The position numbers and the translations under genes were made by a program. Shown piece after piece: positions 14,193 to 39,537 of a DNA stretch of 64,000 nt (position 1 is its first letter; the number at the start of each line of letters is the position of its first letter). The notes under the pieces were generated by a model. It was not told where the DNA came from. It worked only from the letters and a program-made list of their open reading frames with translations, and made no database searches. The stretch is from Candidatus Altimarinota bacterium (GTDB lineage Bacteria > Patescibacteriota > Gracilibacteria > BD1-5 > UBA2023): positions 1 through 64,000 of the forward strand of contig JAQTWX010000002.1 of NCBI GenBank assembly GCA_028689065.1. Reading direction: 5' to 3'.

Positions 14193-14271
14193 GCGGGGGT
14201 AACATAACTGAGCGAGTGTACTAAGGCTTCAACCCTTGGGTGTGTCGGTTCGAACCCGATTCCCCGCTCCA
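14193..14271 (+). tRNA. tRNA-Gly(UCA), reader of UGA
   Basis: The acceptor stem GCGGGGG pairs with TCCCCGC (one G-U), the discriminator is U (14268), and CCA is encoded. The anticodon stem TAAGG/CCTTG closes the loop CTTCAAC with anticodon TCA at 14229-14231. The T arm holds TTCGA. G1-C72, C2-G71 and U73 are the glycine identity elements of bacterial glycyl-tRNA synthetase. A UCA anticodon reads UGA, so this is the tRNA that makes UGA glycine in the Gracilibacteria/SR1 code. The D loop lacks the usual GG pair, and one extra base lies between D and anticodon stems. Confidence 0.93.
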
Positions 14272-32827: not shown

Positions 32828-32837
32828 TAAAAAATAA

Positions 32838-32874
32838 CAAAAACCTCCGAATCAATTCGATTCGGAGGTTTTTG
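32838..32874. terminator. Bidirectional terminator
   Basis: Perfect 16-bp stem with loop AATTC and flanking A and T runs between convergent genes. Confidence 0.9.
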
Positions 32875-32883
32875 TTTTACTTC

Positions 32884-35800
32884 TTACCTCTTCACTACCA
32901 CAGTCACGATAATTCCTTCTACATCCACTTCTCGGGAAATATCCCCTTCTTGGAGATTCTCGTCGATGACAGAGAGGGTCTCGGAAGTGATATAGTCCGA
33001 GAAGAGCGAGAGGATTTTCTCCATCTTTTCTCCATGGAGTGCCACTCGTACTCGGTCGGAGACTTCATATCCAGCATCTTTGCGGAGATCTTGGATAACT
33101 CGGACAAGGTCGCGAGCATACCCCTCGAGTTCGAGTTCTTCAGTAATAACAGTATCCATAGCGATGACCATTCCGGTTCCACTCATAACATCGAGCAAGA
33201 CTCCTTCGAGCGGTTCATAGGCAATTTCATACTCTCCTGCCTCGAGTGTGTATTCTCCAACCTGGATTCGTCCGTCATCAAGTTCTTGGAAATTTCCAGC
33301 TTTCGCTTGAATAATCACATCTTGAACAACTTTCCCGAATCGTGGTCCGATGAGTTTGGCATTTGGTTTACAGATAGTACGTGCCACATGGGACATATCC
33401 TCGATTTTGACTTCCTTTACATTCAGCTCCTCTCGGATAATCTCCTGAAAATATACATCAAGTGGTTCCCCGATGGTAATCGAAGAAAGCGGTTGACGGA
33501 CACGGATTTTCTTCTGACCGCGAAGTGCGAGCCCGAGAGTGATAATATCTCGTGCTTTTTTCATGTCAGCTTCGAGGGAGTCGAACATATGAGCCCGAGT
33601 AAAATCTGGGAATCGCTCCAAGTGAACCGATTCATGACCGGTGAGTCCGCGGTACACCGCATCGGAAATCATCGGAGTAATCGGTGCCATAACTTTCGTG
33701 AGTGTTGTGAGTACATGGTAGAGTGTCTCGTACGCCTCGAATTTATCTCCATCATTCTCAGATTTCCAGAATCGACGTCGGGAGCGTCGAATATACCAGT
33801 TCGTGAGGTCATCCATAAATTCGGTGATGGCTCGGGTCGGTATTTGAAGATCATAACATTCAAACCCCCCAGCAACGGTTGCTGTCAAACGATTGAGTCG
33901 AGATATAATCCATGTATCGAGCCGATTACTAAGCGGAGTCGCAAGAAAGTCATGATATTCTGCATTTCCAATCCGACCATTTCCTCGATATCCTTCCTCC
34001 ATAGAAAGATTGAAAAAATGAGTATTGAAGGCACGGAATGTTCCTCCGTGAGCAACGACAAGTATTCGCTTTCCTGGATATTTGGCGATGATATTCTCTA
34101 TAGCGGATTCGATACGTGCTTGATGATCCCTCTCATGCTCCCCTCCTCCATGTTCGTACGCAGCTTTGTAGTGGTACGGTCCATCGAGGTCTTTTCCAGT
34201 TTTTTCTTTATACCAAGCTTCTATCTCAGTATGACTCTTTCCAGAACACTCTCCGGCATGTCGTTCGATAAGCTCAGGAAGAGTAATAATCTCTCCAGTA
34301 TATCCAAGCTCCTTTGCGACGATCTCCGCAGTTTCTTGAGCACGTCCAGCAGGCGAAACGATAATAATATCGAATTCCTTCCCTTCCTGCTTCATGCGTT
34401 TTCCAGCATTTTGAGACTGTTTTCGTCCGGTTTCATTGAGTGGGGAAGTTTCTCCGGCATCGGAAATACGTTTTCCAAGATTTGCATCTGTTTCTCCATG
34501 TCGCATCATGGTAATGCGGGTTCCAGATGGAGTCCAAGAATCTATATTTGCATATGTCGTGAAGAAACTGTACGTATTCCAGAGTGGAAGGAGAACCTTT
34601 TTTACTACTTCTTCGACTCCTGCTTCCGAGAACCGGAGATCGTCCGCTTTCACCACCGGAGATGAGAGGAGATAGAACCGGAGTGCATCGGCTCCGTGCT
34701 TCTCGACGAGTTCGAGTGGGTCCGGATAATTCTTGAGAGATTTACTCATCTTCCGTCCATCTTCCGCGAGGATGATTCCGTTTACGATGACATTCAGAAA
34801 CGGTGTATTGTCGAAAAGTGCCGTCCCGAGGATGAGAAGCGTATAGAACCAACCACGAGTCTGATCAAGACCCTCCGCGATGAAATCGGCTGGGAATTTG
34901 AAATTGGCGGTTCCTTCGAATGGATAATGTTTGCTCGCGTACGGCATAGAACCGGACTCGAACCAACAATCGAGAACTTCTGGGATTCGCATATAGGTTT
35001 TTCCGTCTTTTGAGAGCTTAATCTGATCCACGAAGTGTTTATGGAGATCGACTGGTTTCTTGGAATCCGTATAGAAATATGCACCGTTTTCTTCATAGAT
35101 TTGTCCAAACTCTTTATTTGCTTCGTAGAGCTCTTTTACAGAACCTATAACGATAATATCCCCGTCTTCACTCTTCCACACCGGAATCGCAGAACCCCAG
35201 TAACGGTTTCGGGATATATTCCAGTCTCGCGCACCTTCCACCCATTTTCCGAATCGTCCGTCTTTGATATTGTCGGGCATCCAGTTTACTTTCTGATTGT
35301 TGGCAATCATCCGATCCTTAAGGGATTCCACATTCACGTACCAAGCGGAAATAGCCCGGTAGATAAGCGGTGTATGGCAACGATAACAGTGTGGATATGA
35401 GTGGTCGATGGTTCCGATATGGATGAGCTTCTTCTCGGACTTGAGTCGGTCGATGACAATCTGGTTAAAGTCGAAGACGTATACATCGTTATCGGAAAGA
35501 AGTCCGGTCGTGTGACCGATAGCATCTATATGGGAAATAAATCCGAGCTTCTCTTTCTGTCCGATTTCCGCATCATCCACACCATATGCTGGGGCGATAT
35601 GTACGACTCCAGTACCGGAATCTGTTGTGACATGGTGCCCTGGTACGACTTTGTACGCATTTTCCCCGAGAACCACATCATCGGAAACAGTTCCTGCCGC
35701 AGCAAGAGTTACAACATCATTGAACATCGGTTCGTATTCTAGTCCAATAAGAGCAGAACCAGGAAATTCACGTACTAAAGTATAATCTTCTGGATTTTTG

Positions 35801-36999
35801 TAATACATTGCAATTCGGTCTTTTGCGAGCATATACGTCTCGCTTGTTGCTTTATCAAAGATTTCTGCGTAAATGACATCCGTTCCAACAGCAAGTCCCA
35901 GATTCGCTGGAAGCGTCCAAGGAGTCGTGGTCCATGCAAGTACGTAAAAACCATTATCTCTAGAAGGTTTTCTCAATCCGAGCAATATATCAACTGCCTC
36001 TCTTGAAGCTACAAAAATATCCTCCGGCAATGTATCTTTTGGAAAAAATCGCCATTCAGTAAATGTTTCTGGTTCTTGTCCGTTTCACGGAATGATTCCT
36101 GAAGATTGAATATGAAAAACTCGATTATCGTAAACTTTTTGTTTCACGAGATCGTATTGTTCTGAAATAATATGCTCCGTACCGATATTTATTTGGATTC
36201 CCGATTCTTCGAAAACTTCTCGCATCGCCGCCTGTTCGAAAGTCTCATCTCCCTCGACTTTCCCCCCAGGAAGAGACCAAAATGAATATTTTTTATTATA
36301 CCCGAGCAGTATCTCGCCTTTTTCATTCTCGATAATCACTCCTACTGCTTTACGGGCTTTCACCTTGAATTTCACCGTCACCGCCTTATCCTGCTTGTCC
36401 TCATAGCCTTGATTCACCTCGAAATTGGAGAGAGGCGTGGAACAACGCGGACAGTATGGAACAACCCGGTACGATTCGTACACATAGCCCTTGTCGTAGA
36501 TACTCTTAAATACCCACCAAACAGACTCCATAAAGTCGGTATCCATGGTCTTGTAGTCGTTGTCCATATCGACCCATCGACCCATACGCTCGACGGTCTG
36601 TCGCCAAACGTCCGTGTATCCGAACACGTTCGCACGACACTGTTCGTTGAACTCGAATACTCCGACCTTATCCTCGATATCCTTCTTCCCAGAGATTCCG
36701 AGCTTTTTCTCGACGATATTCTCGATCGGGAGACCGTGACAATCCCATCCGAAGCGTCGTTCTACGAACTTGCCTTGCATGGTCTGATATCGTGGTATAA
36801 CATCCTTGATGGTTCCCGCCAAGAGGTGACCATAGTGCGGAGTCCCGGTCGCAAATGGAGGACCGTCGTAGAAGTTAAATTCTGGTGAATCCTTTCGGAT
36901 TTCAAGGGATTTCTGAAATATTTGATTTGTTTTCCAGTACGCAAGCATCTCATTCTCGAGAGCTGGGAAAGATTGACGGGAGTTGATTGTAGGAAACAT
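32884..36999 (-). CDS. ileS: Isoleucyl-tRNA synthetase with inserted Nudix and histidine-phosphatase domains
   Basis: 1371 residues, about 330 more than usual for this IleRS type, with one UGA (codon 305). HIGH is HYGH at 55-58 and KMSKS at 750-754. A complete Nudix hydrolase domain (about 214-347) sits between the KFKVKA strand and the TTTPWTLPANL editing region; its box runs from GG at 245 through REVFEESGI. A complete histidine-phosphatase domain (about 825-1020) lies between the catalytic core and the anticodon-binding domain, with RHGE at 833-836, the second Arg in SPAGRAQETAE, and the late His in VVAHGGTFRAF. Both extras look catalytically intact. Their roles are unknown. Confidence 0.93.
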
Positions 37000-37010
37000 A
37001 TGGATAAAAA

Positions 37011-37781
37011 TTAAAAGATAAATTCGGATTGTTTTTTATCAGGAATTCTTTGATAATACTTTCGTATTTCTGATATGAAATATGGATAAAGTCAAAATAG
37101 ATTCGGGTTGTCATCGATAATTCTTATAAGAGATCGTGAACTTTCATAACTATAAAGTATATCTTCTCACCATCATGCAAAGAAACCAATACCATTACCA
37201 GAATCCATTGTATATTTGAAAGCTAATTCCGATAGAAGATGGGGAATACAATGATCTTCGAAGAAATAAACGAATTTATTGAAATCAAGTCCTTGTTTAA
37301 AACAAACTCATTTAATTCTCTGAAAATGTATTTCAAATTCTTTGTCTAATGAACTTCCTGTCATGTATAATGCTTCAAAGAAAGGTTCATCAAATTCGTT
37401 TACAAGTAGTTTAATAAACAAATCCTCATCGTTCATAATATCAGATAATCCATATTGTTCCACAAGAGCTATAAGAATATCTTTCTTTTTTCTCTCTCTT
37501 GCAAGAAATCACTCGAACCAATTATTTATATCATCCCGAAATTTATCAAATTCAGCGTTACCTGACTTCTTTTTTGAAGCAAATCATTCCCCAGATTTTT
37601 GTTTATTTCCCATCAAGAAATCATATGCTTCTCTGATTTTTGCAAGATTTCTCACCACTCCATCAAACTTCGCGGAATCTGGATGCCCCTTACTTCGTAA
37701 TAGTCTATAGTGTGATTGAATTGATGATAATTCAGTTGATTCAGGGAGTTCCAGTAATTCCAGCGCCTTATCTCTATTCAT
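37011..37781 (-). CDS. J-domain-like protein
   Basis: 256 residues with seven UGA codons. The first 65 residues form a J domain: RDKALELLELPESTELSSI, YRLLRSKGHPDSAKF with the HPD motif between helices II and III, then IREAYDFLMG. The rest is helical with many aromatic residues and no zinc or Gly/Phe region, so it is not DnaJ itself. J proteins stimulate DnaK ATPase. The gene is 12 bp after ileS starts, in the same direction. Confidence 0.7.
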
Positions 37782-37805: not shown

Positions 37806-38426
37806 TTACATTATCTTCCCTATCTCCAAAAACAACTCCACGAACGAAGACTGTCCGAAAAAGTGTCACCGATTCTGGAACGTATGAAGTTTGGAATCTT
37901 GTATCCCTGCATGATACCGCTCGGCATGATTATACGGAACTACTGGGTCATCCACAGAGCTCCAGATATGTACTTCATCCGATTGCGAGGCGAGATTCGG
38001 GAGACGATTCGTGTCGAATGCGAACGAGCCGATGGATTCTCCGACGAGTCCTTCATTATCGAGCACTGGGGCGATGAGGTGAAGCTGTGCAAGGTGCTTC
38101 GGAAAGGTATTTTCCGAAAGGTACTTGGCAATAAAAATACTGCCGAGCGAATTCCCAATAAGAATCGTTTTTTGATTATTGAGATACGGAAAGAGTTTCT
38201 CAAACCAAATCTTCCATGCTTCATATTCTGCTTTCTGCTTGCAAGGCATATCGGGCGCGAACGATTCAAATCGATCGGAAAGTCCATCTATAATCCATTT
38301 CTTCCAGCTTGGAAAACGTTTATATGGATTATACTCCCATTGAACAAGATAATCCATATATGCTACATCCGAATCGAATGTTTCTCATCCATGAATGAAT
38401 ATTATCTGATGTTTTAATGGAGTCAT
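37806..38426 (-). CDS. RBBP9/YdeN-type alpha/beta hydrolase
   Basis: 206 residues. IIFIHGGETFDSD starts the fold, the nucleophile elbow is LIGNSLGSIF, SVDDPVVPYNHA carries the Asp, and GHFFG carries the His with its Gly from UGA. This matches the small serine hydrolase family around RBBP9. The natural substrate is not known. It lies between the J-domain gene and a small membrane protein gene. Confidence 0.8.
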
Positions 38427-38457
38427 AATTAAGAAAACTAGAGAAATTAAAAAGGTT

Positions 38458-38706
38458 CTATAATATCCAATAATTCAAAACCCCGTATCCGAATATAATC
38501 GTGAGAGCGATGGTATTGATGAAAATCGCAATTTGTCCGGCCTGTTTCCATGCCTTATAAGAAGAATACACCCAGAATATCTGAGCAATGAGTGTTACTA
38601 TAAGTCCGTATTGTGGCATTTTCATGGACATAAGAAGGAATCCTGCCGTCGTGAAGACGAGAAGTCCAACTTGCATAATATTGTTGAAAGTGAAGTATTT
38701 TTTCAT
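38458..38706 (-). CDS. Small three-helix membrane protein
   Basis: 82 residues: MKKYFTFNNIMQVGLLVF, a second helix IVTLIAQIFWVY and a third IAIFINTIALTIIFGYGVLNY. The in-frame start at 38706 is preferred to one 13 codons earlier since it begins with a lysine-rich N-terminus. No family recognised. Confidence 0.6.
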   Translation of the reverse strand: MKKYFTFNNIMQVGLLVFTTAGFLLMSMKMPQYGLIVTLIAQIFWVYSSYKAWKQAGQIAIFINTIALTIIFGYGVLNYWIL

Positions 38707-38717
38707 ACAAAAAATTG

Positions 38718-39323
38718 TTATTTTCAGAGAATAATAGTAAACCATTTCTGTCCTCGTAAGTCCTGATATTCTACCTTATTCCAACTGTAGTCTTTTCCGC
38801 CTAGATCGAGAATATCTTGTGGACAATAGTAGTAATAGGTGCGAGTTCAAAATTCATCGGTTTTTGTAAGTTCTTCATAAACATCGGAATATTTGAGCGA
38901 TATGAATACTATTCCTCATGGATTAAGTGCGGATAGCATATTCTGGAGTACTTCTTGGAGTTTTTCTCTCGGTGTATGAAGGAGTGATGCAAATGAAAAA
39001 ATAATATCTGTTCACTCTGGAAACTCGAAACCTTCCACGTCAGCCACGATGAATTTCGAAGAAACCTCCGGGAGAGCTTCCTTTGCGAGACGAATTATCT
39101 CCGAAGATATATCGATTCCGAGATAGTCTGAAGTATGGTTCAATATCTCCCGAGCATCTCGACCATTTCCACATCCAATCTCCACTACCTTTGGAGAGTC
39201 TTTTTGAACGTATGAAAAAGCGTGGAGAATATCTTCCACTCTTGCACCAATACCTGCAAATTTTGCTGTCATTTCTTGAGCGGTGGCATTATATACATCG
39301 ATTGTTTGCTGTTTCTTGTTCAT
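38718..39323 (-). CDS. Class I SAM-dependent methyltransferase
   Basis: 201 residues. Motif I is VVEIGCGNGRDAREIL, the acidic end of strand 2 is YLGIDISSEII, motif II is FSFASLLHTPRE, and LSALNPGGIVFISLK is the post-II region with Gly from UGA. Four UGA codons in all. The substrate is unknown. ATG 39323 lies three bases after the T run of a terminator that closes a structured leader RNA, so expression probably depends on readthrough. Confidence 0.82.
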
Positions 39324-39325
39324 AC

Positions 39326-39355
39326 AAAAAAGCACCCATTAGAAAATATGGATGC
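39326..39355 (-). terminator. Terminator at the end of the 39.4-kb leader RNA
   Basis: On the minus strand GCATCC (39355-39350) pairs with GGGTGC (39337-39332), followed by six Ts ending at 39326. Confidence 0.7.
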
Positions 39356-39503
39356 TTTCGGTCCCGGGTTTGGGAAGGTACCACCGGAAAGCGGGTACTT
39401 GATTTATGTTCTATAACGGGAACTTCCGGGAGATTCTACTATCCGCCGTGGCGGGTTTCTTTCTCCGGCTCGCGGGTGATAGCCGCTCAGATGCCTTTAT
39501 TAC
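39331..39503 (-). ncRNA. Structured leader or stand-alone RNA, about 173 nt
   Basis: GC-rich against an AT-rich background and bounded by a good promoter and a terminator. Helices readable on the minus strand: CTATC...GATAG enclosing GCCG...CGGC; TCCCGG...CCGGGA enclosing GTTC/GAAC and GTACC/GGTAC hairpins. A GGTGGTACC recalls the T-box core, but it is buried in a hairpin and the rest does not fit. The downstream gene is a methyltransferase. No known family recognised. Confidence 0.6.
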
Positions 39504-39509
39504 TCGGAT

Positions 39510-39537
39510 AGTATAGGGAGAAATCTAGTTTTGGCAA
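39510..39537 (-). promoter_or_regulatory. Promoter TTGCCA-16-TATACT
   Basis: On the minus strand the -35 is at 39537-39532 and the -10 at 39515-39510. It drives the structured RNA, start near 39503. Confidence 0.7.

Follow-up and report, generated by a model that had tools for sequence, protein, structure and literature searches.

The leader and its operon

The stretch of DNA analyzed here (the window) comprises positions 1 to 64,000 of contig JAQTWX010000002.1 of Candidatus Altimarinota bacterium, a member of the Gracilibacteria with a draft genome of 1.04 Mb in 24 contigs. The minus strand of the window harbours a methyltransferase gene preceded by a leader that consists of a promoter, a structured RNA of ~150 nt and a terminator. 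Five codirectional genes with short gaps follow. The first encodes a SAM-dependent methyltransferase (38718..39323, read in code 25; Methyltransf_25, 3.8e-18), the second a small protein without Pfam match (38458..38706), the third an alpha/beta hydrolase (37806..38588, PF00561; these are the limits of the longest frame, the true start lying probably further in) and the fourth a DnaJ-domain-like protein (37011..37781; PF00226, just below the cut-off). The last gene of this methyltransferase-led operon, 2.3 kb downstream, is ileS, encoding isoleucyl-tRNA synthetase (32884..36999; TIGR00392, 925.7 bits at a cut-off of 621.4). A strong terminator directly 3' of ileS (32836..32876, minus strand) forms the end of the operon, and no strong terminator was found on the operon strand before it. 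The ileS product (1371 amino acids) is an unusual composite synthetase: residues 216-327 form an inserted NUDIX domain and residues 829-1013 a histidine-phosphatase domain. ileS is among the genes that are open only with TGA read as glycine. A tRNA with anticodon UCA at 14193-14271 (plus strand), called as tRNA-SeC by ARAGORN, is most likely a glycine tRNA reading UGA, as in code 25.

A promoter, a structured leader and a terminator had been predicted at 39326-39537, which was borne out, with all three on the minus strand and with the support of 100 homologous leaders. The promoter is sigma-70-like (TTGCCA-16-TATACT, 39510..39537), similar elements being present 5' of the leaders of relatives, and transcription is expected to start near 39503. 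An AT-rich promoter-like block akin to this promoter is also conserved without the leader in relatives (L021, L022, L029) and may be a promoter type common in the family. The leader RNA itself (39352..39498) is matched over its whole length by a covariance model, R1, with 139 bits. The intrinsic terminator (GAAAGCAUCCAU / AUGGGUGCUUUU, followed by a T run; 39326..39359) is a 12-pair hairpin (39359-39328) of -15.2 kcal/mol, and its run of six T residues ends at 39326. The hairpin was not among the results of a simple terminator scan, probably because T run and stem partly overlap. The terminator indeed lies just 5' of the methyltransferase gene as originally described, although the gap between the T run and the ATG (39323-39321) measures 2 nt and not 3 bp.

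Anatomy of the leader RNA

The leader starts with an ultrashort Stem I (39467..39495), built from a GGC/GCC stem, a K-turn-like internal loop (AUCU-GA / GA), a GCGG/CCGC stem and a 7-nt apical loop, CUAUCAC; both of its helices (1 and 2) show covariation. Positions 3-5 of the apical loop form the specifier codon AUC (Ile; 39478..39480), preceded by U and followed by A, which matches tRNA-Ile(GAU). Among 100 leaders of the order, 94 have a hairpin loop of 7 nt with the codon as its middle triplet (loop positions 3-5), and in 97 an A directly follows the codon. The geometry of this loop is that of a tRNA anticodon loop, with the codon and the A at the places of the anticodon and base 37. In the K-turn-like loop, GA is found 5' of the specifier stem in 92 of the 100 leaders, and the 3' side reads GA in 59 and AA in 40. 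The specifier loop caps Stem I; the long Stem I and the elbow-binding motif are absent.

Stem II (39429..39466) contains an S-turn (loop E) motif, GAA / AGUA-GAA. A permissive sequence pattern for this motif (AGUA/GAA) was found in all 100 leaders, flanked by the covarying helices 3 and 4. The stem IIA hairpin that follows (CGGAAGUUCCCG, 39417..39428) is conserved across leaders and is supported by covariation of helix 5. A IIB pseudoknot between GUUC in the stem IIA region and a downstream GAAC is possible; this pairing is present in the genus and weak order-wide (3.07 versus 2.77 in shuffled data). An A-rich strand with a conserved AAUYAAG connects stem IIA to the antiterminator.

The antiterminator (39354..39392, -13.0 kcal/mol) consists of helix A1 (39392-39384 with 39361-39354) and helix A2 (39375-39372 with 39365-39362), and the T-box bulge UGGNACCU sits between them. 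This bulge (UGGUACCU, 39383-39376) is apparently 8 nt long, compared to 7, and holds the T-box sequence UGGU (39380..39383), complementary to the ACCA 3' end of tRNA-Ile. The original prediction had noted that GGTGGTACC resembles a T-box core and had then dismissed the likeness for an unfit target gene and unfit remaining sequence. The resemblance stands and the dismissal does not. The remaining sequence matches an ultrashort-Stem-I T-box in its K-turn-like GA/GA loop, its apical AUC and its stem II AGUA/GAA S-turn, and equally in the UGGN bulge between A1 and A2 and the strand shared by terminator and antiterminator.

Homologous leaders and covariation

A nucleotide search revealed the leader twice in its own genome, with matches in 24 of the 59 genomes searched, its own included. 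A first set of 17 hand-assembled leaders, aligned with MAFFT and scored for the proposed structure, gave a covariation of 0.551, versus 0.216 in shuffled alignments. For this set L005, L006 and L019 had been manually shortened in their stem III inserts and L028 in part of its A2 loop; the untrimmed full sequences of these four were found by the model and used in the analysis of 100 leaders. Covariance model R1 found two copies in the genome under study (139 and 123 bits). Within the order it matched 66 of 77 genomes, as a rule with two copies in each. Across the phylum 108 of 380 sampled genomes had matches, mostly weaker. Related ultrashort-Stem-I leaders were also observed 5' of ileS in Saccharibacteria and other Patescibacteria (L087, L088, L069, L141 and the Saccharibacteria loci L107, L137, L140, L157, L167 and L173).

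Covariance modelling with related leaders, which had been put forward together with the original prediction, thus supports the proposed structure. In the 100 leaders of the order 94.7% of the structure cells are paired, and 29 of the 34 pairs have changes on both sides. Covariation amounts to 0.567, versus 0.211 ± 0.006 in shuffled alignments, none of 500 shuffles reaching as high, and 722 double-change cells were counted where shuffling yields 209. Shifting the pairing partners by 1-3 columns lowered the covariation to 0.13 or less. The alignment of 100 leaders was fitted to model R1 and leans towards it, while the score of the 17 leaders was obtained with the MAFFT alignment.

Folding energy is less informative. 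RNAfold gave -56.9 kcal/mol for the leader (z = -2.1 versus shuffles), a modest value that is only mildly unusual, and the minimum free energy fold is partly wrong, since it pairs stem II with the -10 region of the promoter (ACUAUCC), a region unlikely to be transcribed. The resulting helix (ACUAUCC/GGAUAGU) was discarded for the overlap of its 5' strand with the -10 box and for its disruption of the covarying stem II. The real support for a structured leader is comparative and does not come from folding energy.

Terminator versus antiterminator

The original prediction had described the layout as that of a riboswitch or attenuator, and had pointed to mutually exclusive antiterminator pairing as a feature to look for. 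Such pairing was found. Two antiterminator helices around the bulge, both covarying (helices 6 and 7), are mutually exclusive with the terminator through strands in common: GAAAGC, the 3' strand of A1, doubles as the 5' strand of the terminator, so that six bases belong to both. For the leader in the window simple energies favour the terminator (-15.2 versus -13.0 kcal/mol). A terminator with T run is present in 96 of 99 leaders and overlaps the antiterminator strand in at least 79.

Translational T-boxes of Actinobacteria are described as having an ultrashort Stem I with an apical specifier (PMC7583486), and the element could accordingly be imagined as a T-box-derived leader acting in translation, of class II type, instead of on termination. 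The prevalence of T-run terminators makes this very unlikely. No sequestered Shine-Dalgarno sequence was seen, and the variation of the first gene, together with ileS at a distance that can be kilobases, suits control of transcription.

Target gene, specifier codon and tRNA

In close relatives the small protein or a HAD hydrolase is encoded after the leader in place of the methyltransferase, while ileS is constant. The methyltransferase is therefore a passenger, and the regulatory target of the leader appears to be the operon's last gene, ileS, and not the adjoining first one. The earlier objection that the target gene does not fit a T-box had taken the adjoining gene for the target.

Downstream synthetase genes on the same strand were sought by tblastn with code 25. 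The specifiers of the 100 leaders are AUC (57), AAC (42) and GAC (1). ileS was found downstream of the AUC leaders in 50 of 50 cases with enough sequence, the other seven having less than 1.8 kb, and aspS downstream of the AAC leaders in 40 of 40, the other two having less than 100 nt. The T-box sequence follows the same division, with UGGU in all 54 readable AUC leaders and UGGC in 39 of 40 readable AAC leaders (the exception being L256). No crossover occurs between AUC/UGGU/ileS and AAC/UGGC/aspS leaders. The association of codon and T-box base has a Fisher p of ~1e-25, a value that ignores kinship: the Ile and Asn leaders may derive from one duplication and the loci are related, so the counts are not independent events.

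The tRNAs agree with this division. tRNA-Ile(GAU) of the same genome ends in ...CCC-A-CCA, its discriminator A fitting UGGU, and tRNA-Asn(GUU) of a congener ends in ...GGA-G-CCA (Rfam and ARAGORN), its discriminator G fitting UGGC; for both, the four-base match between T-box and tRNA 3' end is exact. tRNA-Asn was not located in the draft genome to which the window belongs. The second copy of the leader in this genome (C1:5234-5373; L002, L032, L243) carries AAC and UGGC, with a C-A mismatch in helix A1, and lies directly 5' of aspS. This paralog should sense tRNA-Asn. None of 76 genomes searched in the order yielded an asnS above the cut-off, so Asn-tRNA probably arises there from Asp-tRNA-Asn, which makes sense of an Asn specifier 5' of aspS.

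Other specifiers were also observed. One leader 5' of aspS (L296, G029:C1:6194-6348) has the Asp codon GAC in place of the Asn codon AAC and may represent a natural change in which tRNA is sensed. Elsewhere in the phylum GUC is found in the Stem I loop (L062, L066, L067, L071, L072, L078, L082, L083, L085), and several of these GUC leaders possess larger loops with the sequence AUGUCA. All five GUC leaders outside the order that were profile-checked (L062, L066, L071, L072, L078) lie 5' of valS.

The three-way agreement of codon, T-box base and gene in these sequences is the prediction of tRNA sensing and is predicted by no metabolite model. A metabolite riboswitch governing the methyltransferase, for instance a SAM-related one, might be suspected from the ATG of this gene 2 nt after the terminator and from a sub-threshold SAM-II match 5' of the leader (17.4 bits, cut-off 44). 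The match is at chance level (E 0.99), and SAM-II identity was discarded. With codon, T-box base and gene covarying as expected for tRNA sensing, and with ileS and not the methyltransferase as constant neighbour in close relatives, such a riboswitch is extremely improbable. It is also extremely improbable that the leader is a stand-alone small RNA unrelated to the downstream operon, since ileS or aspS lies downstream of it at every locus with sufficient sequence, and since it has a competing antiterminator with covariation and nearly touches the first gene, even though it has its own promoter and terminator and a short RNA is the expected default product.

Proposed mechanism

Anatomy, covariation, agreement of codon, T-box base and gene, the tRNA match and the common strands together indicate that the element is very probably a transcription-attenuating T-box riboswitch with an ultrashort Stem I, specific for tRNA-Ile. 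By all function-defining features that are testable in sequence it is a T-box riboswitch, and it is a reduced structural variant. A tRNA-sensing leader had been one of the options of the original prediction, and the tRNA match argues for it. Most likely the leader senses uncharged tRNA-Ile and switches on the operon ending in ileS.

The tRNA binding, response to charging and direction of regulation in the following scheme are what we infer. When isoleucine is short, the GAU anticodon of uncharged tRNA-Ile would pair with the AUC specifier in the apical loop of Stem I, a pairing braced by the stem II S-turn. The free ACCA end of the tRNA would pair with UGGU in the bulge between A1 and A2. This second pairing would stabilize the antiterminator, and the polymerase would continue into the five-gene operon. 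The 3' end of charged tRNA could not dock, in which case the stronger terminator would capture the 3' strand of A1 and transcription would stop just before the first ATG of the operon.

These leaders may, as a tentative proposal that we consider somewhat doubtful, represent a third structural class of T-boxes. Such a class would be transcription-terminating, with a Stem I that replicates an anticodon arm (a 7-nt loop with the codon at positions 34-36 and A at 37); its IIA/B pseudoknot would be strongly reduced and its T-box bulge enlarged. It would be ancestral to or specialised in Patescibacteria, with Ile and Asn forms across the order and related Val forms elsewhere in the phylum.

Comparison with known T-boxes

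Existing models do not recognize the leader. Rfam RF00230 scored 10.8 bits on it (gathering threshold 93), no informative Rfam family was found for it at the gathering threshold or at E up to 10, and a search of 20 loci of the order with the same E limit brought up no T-box. In other Patescibacteria the Rfam T-box model matched 132 of 380 genomes at E 0.01, 13 of them above the cut-off. The T-boxes of the phylum at large are thus visible to existing models, while those of the order are missed, and annotation understates T-boxes there. No paper joining T-box and Gracilibacteria was found in the openly licensed literature (subscription papers and TBDB lie outside this scope). This literature likewise gave no paper combining T-box, riboswitch and candidate phyla radiation, and only irrelevant papers on T-box and Patescibacteria. 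The leaders point to amino-acid-responsive control in streamlined, host-dependent, ultra-small, UGA-recoding Gracilibacteria, and so compact a T-box would be a good minimal system for structural work and for tRNA-responsive tools.

A 2013 study by Saad and co-workers, listed in PMC7778990, is said to have described Asn-specific T-boxes 5' of aspS-type genes, including a two-codon T-box. The Asn leaders of the order are like these in that tRNA-Asn is tied to the gene making Asp-tRNA-Asn, as in the amidotransferase route; they differ in their single codon, their ultrashort Stem I and their occurrence in an order without asnS above the cut-off.

With the class I transcriptional T-box of Bacillota type (RF00230) the element shares a specifier complementary to the anticodon, a UGGN complementary to NCCA, an antiterminator competing with an intrinsic terminator, and the association with aminoacyl-tRNA synthetase genes. 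Unlike class I it has no long Stem I and no interdigitated T-loop motif for the tRNA elbow, its specifier is not in a side bulge and its score is far under the Rfam cut-off. In the review literature transcriptional T-boxes are associated with a long Stem I (PMC7583486). This reported link with a long, elbow-binding Stem I would be broken here, a Stem I of ~30 nt being apparently enough for a decision taken while transcription proceeds.

Features in common with the class II T-box of ileS in Actinobacteria, which has an ultrashort Stem I (Sherwood et al. 2015; structures 6UFM and 6UFG, as covered in PMC7583486), are an apical specifier loop, a stem II S-turn and a UGGN bulge, along with tRNA-Ile specificity and ileS as target, both predicted here. 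A K-turn-like loop stands where the actinobacterial element has its K-turn. However, the actinobacterial element sequesters the Shine-Dalgarno sequence, whereas an intrinsic terminator is found here. The IIA/B pseudoknot is not clearly conserved in the present leaders, their T-box bulge has 8 nt, and they occur in Gracilibacteria, where Asn versions exist as well, with Val versions in other parts of the phylum. The element is not a new ligand class and its mechanism is known; the novelty lies in the lineage, in the joining of transcription attenuation to an ultrashort Stem I, and in the invisibility to Rfam.
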